64,000 nt of DNA from Dehalococcoidia bacterium (GTDB lineage Bacteria; Chloroflexota; Dehalococcoidia; Lucifugimonadales; UBA1123). Location: NCBI GenBank assembly GCA_009838465.1, contig VXRN01000015.1, positions 1 through 64,000 of the forward strand, given 5' to 3'. How positions within the stretch are numbered: the stretch's first letter is position 1; every line of letters begins with the position of its first letter. Positions 1,492-57,900 of this stretch are shown piece by piece. Both the position numbers and the translations under genes were made by a program. The notes beneath the pieces are model-generated. The model searched no databases and had not been told where the DNA came from. It saw nothing but the letters and a program-made list of their open reading frames with translations.

Positions 1492-4400
1492 ATGGACTGG
1501 ATAACCAAGACGGCTTTGAATAGGCGGACGGTGACAGTGCTGGCTATTGTGCTTGTGCTGGCGGCGGGGGTCTTCACTTACAGGACGCTTCCTGTGGAGC
1601 TGTTCCCGGAGATCGAGTTTCCGCTGGTGACGGTCACGACCTTCTACCCGTCGGCGAACCCTGAATCGGTTGCGAGGGACGTTACCGCACCCATCGAGAA
1701 CGTGATGTCCGGGCTGGACGGGTTGGAAGGCGTGCAGTCGTTCTCGTCGGAGAACAGGTCAATCATCCTGGCGAACTTCGAGTTCGGGACGGACATGGAG
1801 AAGGTGGAGGGCAATCTGAATTCTTCCATCAACGGGATTTCGTTCCCTGACGGCGTAGTCGAGCCGATAGTGGGACGGATCAATCCTGACTCGTTCCCGG
1901 TGCTTCAGCTGAGCGTCACGGGAGAGCGTGAGTTGGTGGAGCTCCAGGACATTCTGGACTCGAGGATTATGCCGGAGATTTCGGGTGTGGAGGGCGTGTT
2001 CAGGGTGGAGGTTACGGGCGAGGTCCAGCAGCAGGCGCAGATAGTGGTTGATCCGGTCAGGATGAGTGAGAAGGGGGTCTCGCTCTTCCAGGTTTCGCAG
2101 GCGTTGTCGGAGAACAGCGTGGCGTTCCCGGGCGGGGCTATCAGCGACGGTGGCGGGCAGGTTCTTCCGATAAAGACGACAAGCGGCTACGAGTCTCTGG
2201 ACGATCTGCGAAATCTGGTAGTCGGGTTTTCGCAGCCGGCGATGGCGCCGGCAGGATCTCGACCTACGGGTTCGATGCCGTCCGGTCCAATGCCGTCCGC
2301 TCCACCATCACCTGTTACGCTGGGAGAGATAGCGGATGTCAGCCTGAGCTCTGGTACGGCGACCAGCATATCGCGCACCAACGGCAAGCCCAGCATCGGG
2401 GTGTCCATCGTCAAGGAGCCGGACGCCAACACGATAGACGTGACGACGGCAGTCCTGGACGCGCTGGAAGGGGTGGGGGACCTTCCGGCGGGTGTGGAAG
2501 TGGTTACGGTCTCAGACCAGGGCCCCGTGATAGAGAGCCAGATAGAGACGCTGGAGCGGGAAGCGATCCTGGGACTGATACTGGCTGTGATGGTGGTGTT
2601 CGTGTTCTTCCTCACGCTGCGGCCAAGCGCGATAGTGGGCGCCCTGACGTCGCTACGCCCGACAGTGGTGATAGCGCTTTCGATACCGCTCAGCATCTTC
2701 ACGGCCGTACTGCTGATGAGTTGGCAGGGGCTGGCGCTGAATTTCATGACACTGGGCGGCCTGGCCATCTCGGTCGGCAGGGTGGTGGACGACAGCATCG
2801 TGGTGCTGGAGAACGTGTACCGGAACATAGAGGGTGGGAGGGAGCGCTGGCGCGCCGCGCTGGACGCGACCACTGAGGTCGGTCCTGCGATCACCGCTTC
2901 TACCCTGGCGACCATCGTGGTGTTCGCTCCCCTGGGATTCATTCCCGGTCTGGTGGGCGCGTTCTTCTTCCCGTTCGCGCTCACTGTCAGCTTCGCGCTG
3001 GTCGCGTCTCTGCTGGTCGCGCTGACGGCGGTGCCGGTGCTGGGAGCGTACCTGCTGAGGCAGGGTGACCTGCCGGAGGGCGTTGGCGAGATAGAGGAAC
3101 TGCCGGAGTCGGACCGGGCCCGTGTCTCGGCAAGCGCGTATTGGATGCAGCGGATCTACACGCCGATACTGAGGTGGGCGCTGGGGCACAAGGCGATTAC
3201 GCTGGTGGCGGCTCTGGTCATAACGGTGGGCAGCGTGAGTCTCACGGCGTTCATTCCGGTCAACCTGTTCGAGAGCGCGGGGGACAGGTTCGCGAACATA
3301 GATATGTCCTTGCCGCCGGGAACTCCGGCGGAGGCGACGCTGGCGGAGTTGGCGAAGGTGGAAGCGGAGATAGCGCCGTACTCGGCGGTTTACATCTCCA
3401 CGGTCGGCAGTCCGTCCGCATCCTTCGGGGCGAACGTTCCGGGCGGGTTCAACCAGTCGAACACGTTCGTGCAGCTGAGCGAGGACGCGCCGGAGGATAT
3501 AATCGCTTCCCTCAGGGACAGGCTGGAGGGCGTCGAGGGGCGGACTATCAACATCACTGAGGTGAGCAACGGGCCGCCGACGGCGGGTCTGGACATCAGC
3601 GTTACGGGCAACGACTACGGGGATATTTCGTCGGTAACGCTCGATCTGATGGGCGAGTTGGAGACATTGGAGGGTGTGGAGAACGTAACCAGCAACGTGA
3701 GCGATGCTCGGGACGAGATAGTGGTGAACGTGGACCCGGCGCGGGCGGCCTCGATTGGTCTGAGCGCGCGGCAGGTGGCGTTCCAGGTAAACCAGTTTTT
3801 CGTAGGCCAGAACGTTACCCGCGTTCAGACGGATAACGGCACGGTGGACGTCGAGCTGAGTGTGGATTCGAGCGACGTATCGAACGTGGAGAGCGTGGAG
3901 TCTCTCGCTATCGCGGGACCCCTGGGTATGACGTCTTTGGGGGAGGTCGCGGAGGTGGTGGTACAGCCAGGGCCGGTGACTATCACGCGGACGGACGGGT
4001 TGCGCTCGGCGAGTATCACGGGGAGCATAACGTCGGACGACACGCAGGCTGTGGGCATAGCTATCCAAGAGAAGATAGACGCACTGTCGCTGCCGCCCGG
4101 CGTGGAGGTTACGAGCGGGGGCGTATTCGCGCAGATTGCGGAGGGCTTCCAGGCGATATTCCTGGCAATGGCGGTGGGCGTCGCGCTGGTGTACCTGGTG
4201 ATGGTGGCGAGCCTGGGGTCGCTGAGAAATCCGTTCGTGATAATAACGAGCCTGCCGCTGGCCGTCATCGGGGCGATGTTCGCGCTGTTCGTCACGGGGC
4301 GTTCGCTGGGTCTTCCGGCGATGATGGGTTTTCTGATGCTCATTGGCATCGTGGTTACGAATGCGGTGGTGCTGATAGCGTTGGTGGAGCAGTTGCGTCA

Positions 4401-29900: not shown

Positions 29901-30240
29901 AGTTCCCACCTCCCTCCAAAGCTCCGAACACGTTCCTGCGGCGATGGTTCTCATTAGAAAGAGCGAGGCCGACGAAGTGAAAGTTCGGCGGCCCCTGGAC
30001 TGCGCCAACTATGGATGAAGGGCAGCTTGCGCTTTATCCTAGTCCGATTTTCTCCCAGACGCAACTGTGCGCCGCGTTACCGTCTTCAGGGGCAGTCCCT
30101 TTCGTTGCTGAACTCTCCCGAATTCGTCGGCTCAATCGGCTCTCAATTCACTACGCATTCGATCCCATGATTTGCTAAACTTATAGTATGAATCATACGA
30201 CTTATACCCGGACAGGCATAAACGGGATGTTATCTATGGC
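29901..30240. other. Intergenic, no gene seen
   Basis: This upstream half of a 570-bp spacer holds no supported ORF. It includes a near-perfect 13-bp palindrome GTATGAATCATAC (30187-30199) beside AT-rich sequence, possibly an operator for the ASCH gene or a promoter remnant. Confidence 0.4.
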
Positions 30241-30400
30241 GATTTTCTCGGCTGGAAAAATTCTCTTCTAGCTACAAATGCTGGTGAATGCTGGTCAAAT
30301 GCAGGTGGAGGATCACCTGCATCGGCCACCAGCACATCACCTGCAGACACCTGCAGAATCCACCAGCAGAAAAGCAATTATTATAAATATACCTTTATGC
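30241..30400 (+). repeat. Iterated-word element A
   Basis: The left end contains AAAAATTCTCTTCTAGCTA. A cluster of short words follows at 10-bp periodicity: TGCTGGT (30279, 30289), ATGCAGGTG (30299) pairing with CACCTGCAT (30314) as a 9-bp hairpin, CACCAGCA (30327, 30361) and CACCTGCA (30338, 30348). The right end is CCACCAGCA...AATTATTATAAAT and then TTTATGCAC. The same ends, with different inner words, occur in the reverse strand at 44041-44200. The TATAAAT at its right end may be the -10 box of the DM13 gene. Confidence 0.6.
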
Positions 30401-30471
30401 ACACTATCAATTCAGCCTACTGATGATACGAACGGTTAGTCAGCCAAAAAGCCCCTGACGGAGTTGACGCC

Positions 30472-31056
30472 ATGACATTGAAAAAGACACTCATTGGAGT
30501 CGCAGTAATAGTCGTGATCGCGGGCGCGGCCTTCGCATGGTGGCTGCTGTCCCCGCTCTTTCTGAACACAACCGTCGAGGAGGAATTCCCCTTCTCGGCC
30601 ACCGCCGATATGCCCGTCGGAATGACACAGACCGAGGCCGAGGACATCATGCAGGGCATGGCCAAGGTGGACATGGAAGAGATGGAGGAGATGCCCGACG
30701 AGATGGCCCAGGCCGTGGCGCTGTCGTCCGGTATGTTCAGGGACGCCGACAGCTTCCACAAGGGCAGCGGCACGGCGACCATTTACAGGCTGCCCGACGG
30801 CATGGGCGCGCTTCGCTTCGAGAACCTGGACGTAACCAACGGCCCCGACCTGCGAGTGCTTCTATCCACACATCCCGACCCGCAGAACAAGGCGGAGTTG
30901 AACGAGGCCGGGTATATCCACATCGAAAAGCTCAAGGGCAACCGCGGCAATCAGAACTACGAGCTGCCCGCCGACGCCGACCTGGAGTCCTTCGGCTCTG
31001 TCATCATATACTGTATGCCCTTCCACGTCATCTTCAGCGTCGCTCCGCTACAGTAA
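30472..31056 (+). CDS. DM13-domain membrane-anchored protein
   Basis: The 194-aa protein has an N-terminal signal anchor (about 6-28: TLIGVAVIVVIAGAAFAWWL) and a C-terminal DM13 domain (about 85-194): GMFRDADSFHKGSGTATIY, LRFENLDVTNGPDLRVLLS, KGNRGNQNYELP and VIIYCMPFHVIFS, with the family's conserved Cys. DM13 is proposed to act in electron transfer or redox signalling at the cell surface. The linker is Met/Glu-rich (about 50-75). ATG start with GGAG 9 bp upstream; element A lies upstream. Confidence 0.88.
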   Translation: MTLKKTLIGVAVIVVIAGAAFAWWLLSPLFLNTTVEEEFPFSATADMPVGMTQTEAEDIMQGMAKVDMEEMEEMPDEMAQAVALSSGMFRDADSFHKGSGTATIYRLPDGMGALRFENLDVTNGPDLRVLLSTHPDPQNKAELNEAGYIHIEKLKGNRGNQNYELPADADLESFGSVIIYCMPFHVIFSVAPLQ

Positions 31057-44004: not shown

Positions 44005-44040
44005 TCGGTAAAGTCCTCGTCCGGGTTGAGTGCATTTACT

Positions 44041-44200
44041 TTGATTTATAATTATGCTGGGTTGCACTGGTCAGTCAACAGGGAGAGTACAGGGGGCAAC
44101 TGGGGCGATTTTCGCCCAGAGATGCCCAGCGTTTTCCCAGCGTTAGCTACGAAGGAAATTTTTCGTGGCGGATAATTTTCGATATTATAAGTTTTAATTT
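44041..44200 (-). repeat. Iterated-word element B
   Basis: Read on the minus strand, this shares with element A (30241) the left end GAAAAATTTCCTTCGTAGCTA, written here in two parts as GAAAAATTTCC and TTCGTAGCTA. Tandem GCTGGG words follow (CCCAGCGTT on plus at 44125 and 44136, 11 bp apart). A GGGCGA/TCGCCC hairpin is at 44103-44117, and the right end is CCCAGCATAATTATAAAT and then AAATGCAC. The element lies directly upstream of ftsY, with its TATAAAT facing that gene. Confidence 0.6.
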
Positions 44201-44350
44201 ATGCTATTGGGGAGATCGGACCTGATTGGGAGTCTGGTCGCCAGGCTCAATTGTAGCATAGCGCGGGAGTGTGAATGTAGTGATTTTAGAAACGCATCCA
44301 GTATAGTGTAAAATAACAACAGTCAGTAAAAGAACTGAGCTTGGAAGCAG
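44201..44350. other. AT-rich spacer before the zeta-toxin-like gene
   Basis: No gene is seen. The spacer is AT-rich (for example TAGTGTAAAATAAC near 44307) and probably carries the promoter of the toxin-like gene, but no confident -35/-10 pair was found. Confidence 0.3.
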
Positions 44351-44875
44351 ATGATGGCATCGAAGAAGATTCGGATAATCGCGGGGCCGAACGGGGCGGG
44401 CAAGACGACGTTCGCCACGGAGTTTCTGCCAAACGAAGCTGATTCTCTGGCTTTCGTGAACGCAGATATGATAGCGGCGGGGTTGAATCCGTTCGAGCCT
44501 GAACGTTCGGCTGTGCAGGCGGGCAGGCTGATGCTGAGAATGATTGGCGATTACGTCAGCCGAGGGGAGAGTTTCGCTTTAGAGACCACGCTGAGTGGAC
44601 GGGGATACGCGCGGCAAATCCCAATCTGGCAAGAGCGGGGTTATTGGGTTCAGTTGTATTTTCTGCGCCTGCCGAAGCCGGATATGGCTGTGGCTCGCGT
44701 GCGTAACAGGGTCCGGGAAGGGGGACACCATGTACCCGAAGACGTGGTGCGGCGGCGATTCGACGCTGGCTGGCGCAATTTCAGTGAGATATACCGTGAT
44801 ATAGTGGATGAGTGGGCGTTGTACGACGCATCCGGGGGTTCTCCAATCATAATCGAGGAGGGAGGCAAGCCATGA
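44351..44875 (+). CDS. Zeta-toxin-like P-loop kinase
   Basis: The 174-aa protein begins with Walker A IIAGPNGAGKTTFATEF (residues 9-25). FVNADMIAAGLNPF supplies the Asp of the zeta-toxin substrate site. FALETTLSGRGY and the Arg-rich lid (RVRNRVREGGHHVPEDVVRRRF) follow. Zeta toxins phosphorylate UDP-N-acetylglucosamine and poison wall synthesis; some relatives are housekeeping kinases. Start is ATG 44351 or 44354 after GGAAG. Its stop overlaps the next small gene (ATGA). Confidence 0.82.
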   Translation: MMASKKIRIIAGPNGAGKTTFATEFLPNEADSLAFVNADMIAAGLNPFEPERSAVQAGRLMLRMIGDYVSRGESFALETTLSGRGYARQIPIWQERGYWVQLYFLRLPKPDMAVARVRNRVREGGHHVPEDVVRRRFDAGWRNFSEIYRDIVDEWALYDASGGSPIIIEEGGKP

Positions 44876-45051
44876 ATGAGCAGCACATGGAAGGCAAGAA
44901 GGCGAAAAAGCGGCCGCGTTCAAAGGACTTTATAGGAGCGGAGGCGGCGCTGCGGCGGGCGGCGGTCAAGGCTCGGCGGCGGGCGATAGAGACTACGGGT
45001 TCGGTTCCCACGTGGAAGGACGGGAAGATAGTGTATGAGACTGAGGTGTAG
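44872..45051 (+). CDS. Small basic protein, putative partner or antitoxin of the zeta-like kinase
   Basis: The 59-aa protein is very basic (EGKKAKKRPRSK, then AALRRAAVKARRRAIETTG) and ends TWKDGKIVYETEV. I do not recognise a family. It overlaps the kinase gene by 4 bp and has GGAGGGAGG 8 bp upstream of its ATG, so it is strongly translated from the same mRNA. Classical epsilon antitoxins precede the toxin; here the order is reversed. An antitoxin role is inferred from position only. Confidence 0.65.
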   Translation: MNEQHMEGKKAKKRPRSKDFIGAEAALRRAAVKARRRAIETTGSVPTWKDGKIVYETEV

Positions 45052-45122
45052 GACGGCTGGCGAGGGCTGGCGGGATGATTCGGACACGCGCTTTCTCATA
45101 TACGCAGGTTTGCGTTCCACGC

Positions 45123-56164: not shown

Positions 56165-56881
56165 ATGCCCAACCCGAAACCCCGATGCTCAGCCCTCAAC
56201 AGCAAAGGAAAACCCTGCAACGCTCGCCCCATACAGCCTGAAGGACTCTGCTTCGGACACCACCCCAAGGCTGACGAGTGGCGGAAGAAAGGCGGACGCC
56301 CCCGCTCCCGGAAACGTGCCGCTCTACCCGCTCCGACTCCCGTGTCCGAGCTCATGGGTGACAGCGCGCTCAACCCCTTGCTGAGAAATATGGAAGAAAT
56401 CATCGCCCAGGTCCACCGTGAAGACCTCGCGCCCGACAGGGCAAGAGCTATGGTCACCGTCGCCAACGCCATGATGAAGATGATAGACAAAGCCGACGAC
56501 TACCCTGCCCTGGATCCGGTTCCTCCCTCCGTGCAGCGCGCCCCTAGTAATTCGGTATTCGACGATCCCCCCGATTGGCTCATAGAACGCATGGGTTACG
56601 CCAGGGGCCTGCTCGAATCTCATGAAGAGCGGCTCGAAACCGACGAAGAATACCGCGAACAGTGGGAACGCGACGAGGAAGAGCGGATACGTGAAGAAGA
56701 CGACTTCGACTACGCTATGGCCAAAGCCCTAAATAGCCTGGCTGACGCAAGCTCGGCTGGCGCAGACCTATCGCAGCCCCCCAGCGACGACAGCTATCGG
56801 GACGCCGCAGATGAAATCGTCTGGAAGACGTTCAGCCACGCCATCGCCGAGCGCAGGCAAGCCGACCCGACACCAGTTTGA
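56165..56881 (+). CDS. Cys/His-motif protein (DUF5763-like N-terminus)
   Basis: The 238-aa protein starts with a probable zinc-binding motif CSALNSKGKPCNARPIQPEG followed by LCFGHH (C-x10-C-x10-C-x2-HH), as in DUF5763 proteins, then GGRPRSRKRAALP. A helical region (NMEEIIAQVHREDLAP...ANAMMKMIDKADD) resembles the small-terminase-like part of mobile-element proteins. An acidic repeat-like tail follows (EYREQWERDEEERIREEDD). The last codons (ACA CCA GTT TGA) coincide with the first copy of a downstream repeat word. ATG 56165 after AGGTG. Confidence 0.65.
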   Translation: MPNPKPRCSALNSKGKPCNARPIQPEGLCFGHHPKADEWRKKGGRPRSRKRAALPAPTPVSELMGDSALNPLLRNMEEIIAQVHREDLAPDRARAMVTVANAMMKMIDKADDYPALDPVPPSVQRAPSNSVFDDPPDWLIERMGYARGLLESHEERLETDEEYREQWERDEEERIREEDDFDYAMAKALNSLADASSAGADLSQPPSDDSYRDAADEIVWKTFSHAIAERRQADPTPV

Positions 56882-57010
56882 CCCAAAAATCCCGGGTTAC
56901 TGGTGAAACTGGTCTGATTCGACCAGTTTCCAACCAGTTTCTCTCCAAAACTGGTACCAGTTTCAACACCAGTTTTACCCTGAAACTGGTATCTGTTTCT
57001 GCACCAGTTT
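56872..57010. repeat. ACCAGTTT iterated-word cluster
   Basis: ACCAGTTT occurs at 56872, 56922, 56933, 56956, 56968 and 57003. Its complement AAACTGGT occurs at 56906, 56948 and 56983, plus a partial ACTGGT at 56899 and a degenerate ATCTGTTT at 56991. The copies at 56948 and 56956 abut as a perfect 16-bp palindrome. Several spacings are near 11-12 bp or multiples. The first copy overlaps the stop codon of the upstream gene. Confidence 0.85.
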
Positions 57011-57043
57011 CAAAGAGACGCTGACACCGGCCTGATAACTCGA

Positions 57044-57073
57044 TTGCCCAACCCACCGACCGGACTCTATAAT
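57044..57073 (+). promoter_or_regulatory. Promoter of the enoyl-CoA hydratase gene
   Basis: TTGCCC (57044-57049), an 18-bp spacer and TATAAT (57068-57073) lie 39 bp upstream of ATG 57112 and just downstream of the ACCAGTTT cluster, which could therefore affect this promoter. Confidence 0.5.
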
Positions 57074-57111: not shown

Positions 57112-57900
57112 ATGACCGACGACATTCTCGTATCCACGCAGGACCGCATAGCGACCGTAACCTTCAACCGGCCGCGTCAGCGCAACGCGATCAGCTATCA
57201 CGGCTGGCTCGAACTCAGGCGCATAGCAATGGACCTGGATCGCGACCCGGAAGTGCGCGTCGTAGTGTTCACCGGCGCGGGCGACGCCGCCTTCTCCGCC
57301 GGAGCCGACATCAAGGACTTCGAGGACTACCGCGACAACTCCGAGAAGGCAGTCGTCTATGCCGAAGCATTCGACGGCGCGATGGACACCATCGAGTCTA
57401 TGTCCAAGCCCACAATCTGCCTGATTAAGGGCTTCTGCGTCGGCGGAGGATGCGAACTCTCCATGGCGACCGACATACGCATCGCCGCCGACAACAGCCG
57501 CTTTGGAATCCCGGTAGCCCGCCTCTCCATCCTCGTTGGGTACAAGGAGATGCGCCGCCTCGTGCAGCTCGTCGGGCCCGGCAACGCTGCCTACATCCTG
57601 CTCTCCGCTCGTCTCATCGACGCGCAGGAAGCGTACAGGATCGGACTGGTCACCCAGACTGTCCCATTGGAAGAAGTCTCCGACGTAGCCTACGATCTCG
57701 CCCGCGAGATGGTCCCGCTCGCGCCCCTGTCCCAGGCGCGCCACAAGGAGATACTCCAGACGGTCCTCAAGAACCCCGGCCTCAAGTCCCTGTCCGAAGA
57801 GGAAGAACTGCTCCCCTTCACCAACTTCGACAGCGAAGACTTCCAGGAAGGCCGCAGCGCGTTCATCGAACGCCGCACTCCGACCTTCCAGGGCCGCTGA
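57112..57900 (+). CDS. Enoyl-CoA hydratase / isomerase family protein
   Basis: The 262-aa crotonase-fold protein has the oxyanion-hole motif AFSAGADIKDFEDY (about 63-76), the second motif IKGFCVGGGCELSMATDIRIA and the trimer-interface tail ARHKEILQTVL. The catalytic Glu positions are only partly conserved (FGIPVARLSI), so the reaction may be hydration, isomerisation or other acyl-CoA chemistry. ATG with GGAG 10 bp upstream. It is followed after 29 bp by the YciI gene. Confidence 0.88.
   Translation: MTDDILVSTQDRIATVTFNRPRQRNAISYHGWLELRRIAMDLDRDPEVRVVVFTGAGDAAFSAGADIKDFEDYRDNSEKAVVYAEAFDGAMDTIESMSKPTICLIKGFCVGGGCELSMATDIRIAADNSRFGIPVARLSILVGYKEMRRLVQLVGPGNAAYILLSARLIDAQEAYRIGLVTQTVPLEEVSDVAYDLAREMVPLAPLSQARHKEILQTVLKNPGLKSLSEEEELLPFTNFDSEDFQEGRSAFIERRTPTFQGR

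Follow-up and report, generated by a model that had tools for sequence, protein, structure and literature searches.

The word array of the window

Between a Cys/His-motif gene and an enoyl-CoA hydratase/isomerase gene, the window (the whole 64-kb stretch of DNA analysed here) carries nine perfect ACCAGTTT words, six direct and three inverted, within 139 bp at 56872-57010, which raises the question of whether this array is a site belonging to the neighbouring gene or part of something larger. All nine words were found where the original prediction had placed them (56872+, 56906-, 56922+, 56933+, 56948-, 56956+, 56968+, 56983- and 57003+), the 16-bp palindrome that it described is exact, and the first word does overlap the last codons and stop of the 238-residue open-reading frame (...ACA CCA GTT TGA). 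The rest of the window contains a single further copy, at 3791. As 0.91 copies of ACCAGTTT are expected per 64 kb, a chance origin of the nine-word array is excluded, and none of 100 shuffles reached 10 copies.

The array is a worn, old copy of a dispersed transposon-like element. Of one end of this copy, CGATTGCCC at 57041-57049 is all that is left, and the opposite end is not recognisable; the promoter half of the element is missing and its own -10 box is absent. The -35-like hexamer of the promoter predicted for the downstream gene falls inside the terminal-repeat remnant. An orthologous array, flanked by the same two genes, is present in a congener (G002). The features of the window are collected in Table 1.

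Table 1 Features of the window that bear on the word array
Feature	Position	Strand	Basis
Cys/His-motif gene, 238 aa, small-terminase-like	56165..56881	+	sequence; position of viral relatives
ACCAGTTT array, central part of a family-A element copy, facing the 57112 gene	56872..57010	+	nhmmer family A, 61 bits, 57012-56863
16-bp perfect palindrome AAACTGGTACCAGTTT, a recurrent minus/plus word junction in the family	56948..56963	.	sequence
GATTGCCC, putative terminal inverted repeat remnant (family end GATGCGATTGCCCTG)	57042..57049	+	position and sequence
Predicted promoter of the 57112 gene: TTGCCC, 18 bp, TATAAT	57044..57073	+	consensus match only
Enoyl-CoA hydratase/isomerase gene, 3′ of the array and faced by it	57112..57900	+	PF00378, E 4.4e-53
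Superfamily member with GCAGGTG/GCTGGTG, CACCTGCA and CACCAGCA words	30135..30413	-	sequence and profile matches
Superfamily member with CCCAG/CTGGG words	44032..44258	+	covariance model hit 44032-44150 (+)

A dispersed family with transposon ends

A pattern search of genomes located the same word architecture at 8 loci in the window's own genome (G000, 3.55 Mb in 75 contigs) and at 12 in G002. Among the 60 relatives searched, all genomes compared being metagenome-assembled with 6-9% contamination, G002, a congener, was the only one with ACCAGTTT arrays, and none was found in two further congeners. Word order and spacing are alike at all of these loci (orientation and offset: -0 -10 +26 +36 -52 +60 +71 -85 +94), with words lost or gained in steps of whole repeats.

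Alignment of 17 copies with their flanks gave a conserved unit of ~340 bp, bounded in family A, the family to which the window copy belongs, by terminal inverted repeats (TIRs) CAGGGCAATCGCATCTAAATTTCGG, with ends CAGGGCAATCGC; TIRs of the CAGGG type are present when the copies of family A or of B2 are aligned. Two elements (G002 C3:172342 and G001 C66:900) have a perfect (10/10) target duplication of 10 bp, and a duplication of at least 80% identity was seen in 8 of 12 rows, one element being counted twice, against 0.8% of random sites. In G002 (C2) and G000 (C48), remnants of ISAs1-family transposase genes (NF033564) start inside matching TIRs, at distances of 90 and 174 bp, and the TIRs beside them in the two genomes have 3 mismatches in 20. 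ISAs1 elements duplicate 8-10 bp of target. On the ~340-bp unit, the TIRs, the target duplication and the transposase remnants with the same ends, all read from sequence, we classify the family as a non-autonomous ISAs1-type MITE; no intact autonomous ISAs1 copy was found in the array-bearing genomes. At syntenic sites in close genomes, copies were present, absent or replaced, and no clean empty site was found.

The IS1595 transposase downstream of a core at G002 C1:173.6 kb was considered as the autonomous partner and rejected: it is part of a nested IS, which has ends of its own and a AAAGTTTT duplication. At G002 C2:89112, two TIRs spaced 1.8 kb from each other flank ordinary reading frames and no transposase. 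The IS1595-family element inserted in that core (L111:13400-16130, G002 C1:173.5-176.1 kb) has a DNA methyltransferase (TSPPYN) and a further reading frame as passengers. Copies of another IS, with the end GGGTGTCTGAGAAG, occupy one and the same position of the array in two separate cores (L124:15300-16500 at G002 C1:436 kb and L133:6990-7880 at 607 kb) and are flanked on each side by CTGAGA; this IS may prefer the array word.

Short elements with the same terminal repeats and no array were also observed. One of 134 bp (L092:900-1033) lies on contig C66 of G001, a congener without arrays, and is flanked by a perfect 10-bp duplication, CGGTTGGATA; a similar one of 135 bp lies at L050:13584-13718.

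One layout, several words

A search with the terminal repeats brought up elements of the same layout built from different words, and profile searches with both kinds gave 87 distinct copies in 2.0 Mb of G002 together with the G000 loci. By a sequence-only covariance model, G000 has no fewer than 59 copies and G002 no fewer than 63; none was found in the 58 other relatives. The subfamily words are ACCAGTTT; CAGGTG/CTGGTG with CACCTG/CACCAG; CAGGGC/CAGGCG with GCCCTG; and GCAGGTG with CACCTGC; all have C[A/T]GG in common. Their cassettes are 300-350 bp long and keep a fixed order: terminal repeat, AT-rich palindromic box, word array (words of 6-9 bp, in both orientations), a TAGCTA/T-run segment, another AT box, a promoter that points outward and has an extended -10 box, and the other terminal repeat. 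Most copies of the other-word subfamilies have no recognisable TIR, so mobility is established for the TIR-bearing copies only.

The resemblance that had been noticed between the nine-word array and word clusters at 30.3 and 44.1 kb is thereby confirmed: both clusters are real members of the superfamily, with other words. The 30.3 kb member has a -10-like TGCTAAACT at 30173 (+) that points to a plus-strand reading frame starting near 30473, and the 44.1 kb member a -10-like TGCTACAAT at 44250-44258 on the minus strand, pointing through the array towards lower coordinates. The words differ between the two species at three orthologous sites (the 30.3 kb member against G002 C3:331.6 kb, L233 and L247). 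At the first of these, flanks and promoter half align, whereas the G002 core is of a different word type and has a CAGGACAATCG end, which we read from the alignment as a probable switch of the array word in place. Around the 44.1 kb member, a block of ~1070 bp (44027-45097) has no counterpart in G002, where the syntenic interval (C2:542330-542434) measures 104 bp; the block holds the array element, a P-loop gene at 44351 that looks zeta-toxin-like by eye, and a small downstream reading frame.

Placement upstream of genes and a predicted promoter

Copies are intergenic, with a coding overlap of 2% on average, and nearly all of them are placed in one orientation. With genes called by a simple ORF scorer, 54 of 58 copies in G002 have, on the side of the first AT box, a neighbouring gene that points away from the core, against an intergenic background of 62% (P = 7e-8); the core therefore lies upstream of that gene. 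Fresh loci in G000 repeated the bias (19/20, P = 1e-3), so that the same element end faces a gene start in 73 of 78 copies from both genomes, and no clear bias was seen on the opposite side of the core. An extended -10 box, [TC]GCTAN[AC]AT (TGCTANAAT boxes), stands at a fixed position on the gene-ward strand of 53 of the 87 copies, against 0 on the opposite strand and 0.74 on average in shuffles. From the orientation-locked placement and this gene-ward box, we infer that the element is a portable promoter whose leader contains the array. The cassette promoters are predicted from consensus matches, and several downstream genes have a canonical promoter of their own closer to the gene than that of the cassette. 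A resemblance between the right half of family A and the promoter of the Cys/His genes, although above shuffles, involved a -10-like AT-rich stretch in the opposite orientation and was not used.

The facing genes are diverse, metabolic and housekeeping, and a search for a common function among them found none. They bear on the suggestion that the window array serves a plasmid or a replication origin as an iteron or partition site beside its binding protein. Clusters of direct and inverted short words beside a gene for a small, DNA-binding-like protein are indeed what iterons and ParB/parS-type arrays look like. The cassettes differ from these in being dispersed genome-wide with TIRs and target duplications, in at least 60 chromosomal copies that lie upstream of metabolic genes, recA, chorismate synthase and suf genes. 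Nor does a replication or partition gene lie beside the window array; no Rep or ParA/ParB family was found among the four proteins scanned around it. About 100 intergenic copies upstream of metabolic genes do not fit such a role, and we regard it as extremely improbable.

Constraint on the words and folding of the array

Comparison of the window array with its G002 orthologue, with words defined in either genome, gave 0/50 mismatches in words and 8/51 in spacers (P = 0.006). In five other orthologous cores the words differ by 9.9% and the flanks by 17.4% (P = 0.017); spacers differ by 16.7%, so that the contrast of words with spacers alone is marginal in these cores (P = 0.076). Within family A, the majority base is present at 94% in words and 81% in spacers. 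Taken as sequence comparisons, these figures indicate that the words are more constrained than the spacers.

This constraint bears on whether the elements are purely selfish, with uniform words produced by slippage and gene conversion, an orientation bias produced by insertion near promoters, and no function for the host. The TIRs, the target duplication, the loss and gain of words as whole repeats, the patchy distribution and the replacement of array types at orthologous sites would all be expected of such an element. Word conservation in excess of spacer conservation at orthologous sites and the conserved gene-ward -10 box speak against it, and the bias in orientation would be hard to obtain from TIR transposition alone. 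We consider it unlikely that selfish spread is the whole explanation.

A function at the RNA level is a further possibility. Plus and minus words could pair with each other and give the transcript a long 5′ leader of many hairpins, on which termination, stability or translation of the facing gene would depend. The uniformity of words inside an array would then follow from the need of each plus arm to pair with minus arms. The promoter motif would put the array in a leader, and the window array folds better than shuffles (z = -6.4), as do twelve other arrays (z = -1.2 to -5.0). Native halves folded slightly better than chimeras on the predicted RNA strand (P = 0.017) and not on the other (P = 0.20), and the outermost words co-vary (25 A-U, 3 U-A, 1 mismatch). 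Against this, the variable A/T position in the inner words changes independently of the nested partner (p4-m1, 20/29 against 18.5 expected; p2-m3, 22/32 against 21.7), and the whole array keeps one word type while this position varies. No single structure common to all array copies was found, and a search of Rfam families gave no match. A leader acting as RNA is a tentative explanation, one that we would not place first. For the role of the array, we put protein binding to the DNA words somewhat ahead as the more probable, with leader hairpins close behind.

The Cys/His gene and the arrays beside it

If a protein reads the words, the product of the gene that ends in the first of them is an obvious candidate. 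Its Cys/Cys/Cys/His pattern is invariant in seven relatives. The resemblance to Pfam DUF5763 is very weak (E = 0.27 at 11.2 bits) and does not amount to membership, as scores of 11.2 to 13.4 bits fall short of the cut-off, 26.3. Searches with PHROGs and Pfam profiles assigned the protein to no family, tblastn against a phage collection gave no matches, and Foldseek with a low-confidence model (pLDDT 66) matched no known fold. The guess that it resembles a small terminase gains support from position: in two IMG/VR contigs, the next gene downstream of its relatives encodes the terminase large subunit (TerL), and one G002 paralogue adjoins TerL, which puts the protein at the place of a small terminase. 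No large terminase lies beside the window gene; TerL adjacency was seen in the two viral contigs and the one G002 locus. At that locus (L161:14097-15948, G002 C2:374.1-375.9 kb) a terminase large subunit gene (PHROG 979) stands alone behind the Cys/His gene, and the segment appears to be a remnant of a prophage or gene-transfer agent.

All four independent Cys/His loci in the two genomes have an array within ~500 bp, compared with 8% of all genes. The array lies downstream in the window and at G000 C62, where it follows the stop directly and uses another word, and upstream at G002 C2:374 kb and C1:794 kb. The C62 array (L061:7300-7830, at about 12.7 kb of that contig) consists of GCAGGG/CCCTGCA words after a 132-residue paralogue and is without the AT boxes of core elements. 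The expectation that each homologue would be accompanied by its own array thus holds at these four loci, two downstream and two upstream, and fails in the viral relatives (L209, L210), where no array lies beside the gene. Nor is the array a site private to the Cys/His gene, given the 8 and 12 ACCAGTTT loci and the other-word cores, at least 59 in G000 and at least 63 in G002, that stand without it. Overall, the original prediction is partly supported.

The Cys/His protein could nevertheless act in trans, binding words at all copies as a regulator or a packaging-type recognition protein, with each neighbouring array being a paralogue's own site. Small terminases recognise pac sites, and the arrays resemble phage pac/cos sites in that a repeat array lies near a small-terminase-like gene at four loci. 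For small terminases, a helix-turn-helix ring has been described (PMC4737164). Besides the adjacency, the protein was found in the same 2 of 60 genomes as the arrays, which counts as one event because the two genomes form one clade. On the other hand, each genome has two to three Cys/His genes for at least 60 arrays, most arrays being dispersed without the gene, in departure from pac/cos sites; viral relatives sit beside TerL with no array; the adjacency was noticed after the fact; and the low-confidence protein model leads to no fold that would help. We hold action in trans by this protein to be doubtful. In a bolder version, a domesticated phage-type zinc small-terminase family and the transposon-borne promoter-leader cassettes would form one system, in which the protein reads arrays in one orientation before some hundred genes and the word switches as paralogues diverge. 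This we consider quite improbable.

A probable mobile promoter-leader cassette

The reading that we prefer, with a probability of roughly 0.6, is that the cassette is a mobile promoter-leader MITE in which the array acts as a multi-site target. The promoter of the cassette would drive transcription through the array into the neighbouring gene, so that the array would serve as this target within the transcribed leader or just downstream of the promoter. Transposition would supply further genes with the cassette, and any copy not pointing at a gene start would be lost. The array of the window would form the central part of an old, non-autonomous MITE copy of the ISAs1 type, now placed between the Cys/His gene and an enoyl-CoA hydratase gene whose predicted -35 lies in what is probably the terminal-repeat remnant.

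Among known systems, the closest are ISAs1-derived MITEs of the H-repeat/ISAs1 group, with which the cassette shares a TIR starting CAGGG, a target duplication of ~10 bp, short copies without coding capacity and, in both genomes, ISAs1 transposase remnants that carry this TIR. It differs from them in the long array of 8-mers at its centre, in its outward promoter and its AT boxes, and in being strongly orientation-locked to gene starts; an intact autonomous copy was not found. Correia, ERIC and REPIN-type elements and mobile promoters are short, dispersed, intergenic and palindromic, and can carry promoters or protein sites. The cassette is likewise short, dispersed, intergenic and palindromic; unlike them, it exchanges the word from one subfamily to the next under a constant layout, and turns one end to a gene start in 73 of 78 copies. 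In the literature searched on MITEs in Chloroflexi/SAR202, on ISAs1 MITEs and on DUF5763, no description of this element was found.

If this reading is right, a mobile element has recently put the same gene-facing module of promoter and array before many unrelated genes in two uncultured Dehalococcoidia species. Those species stand close to relatives without the element, and would thus offer a natural case of wholesale rewiring by transposition, in which subfamilies keep the layout and exchange the word, and the word has been switched at some orthologous sites. The element would then give a direct comparative test of arrays that are read by proteins against arrays that act as RNA.
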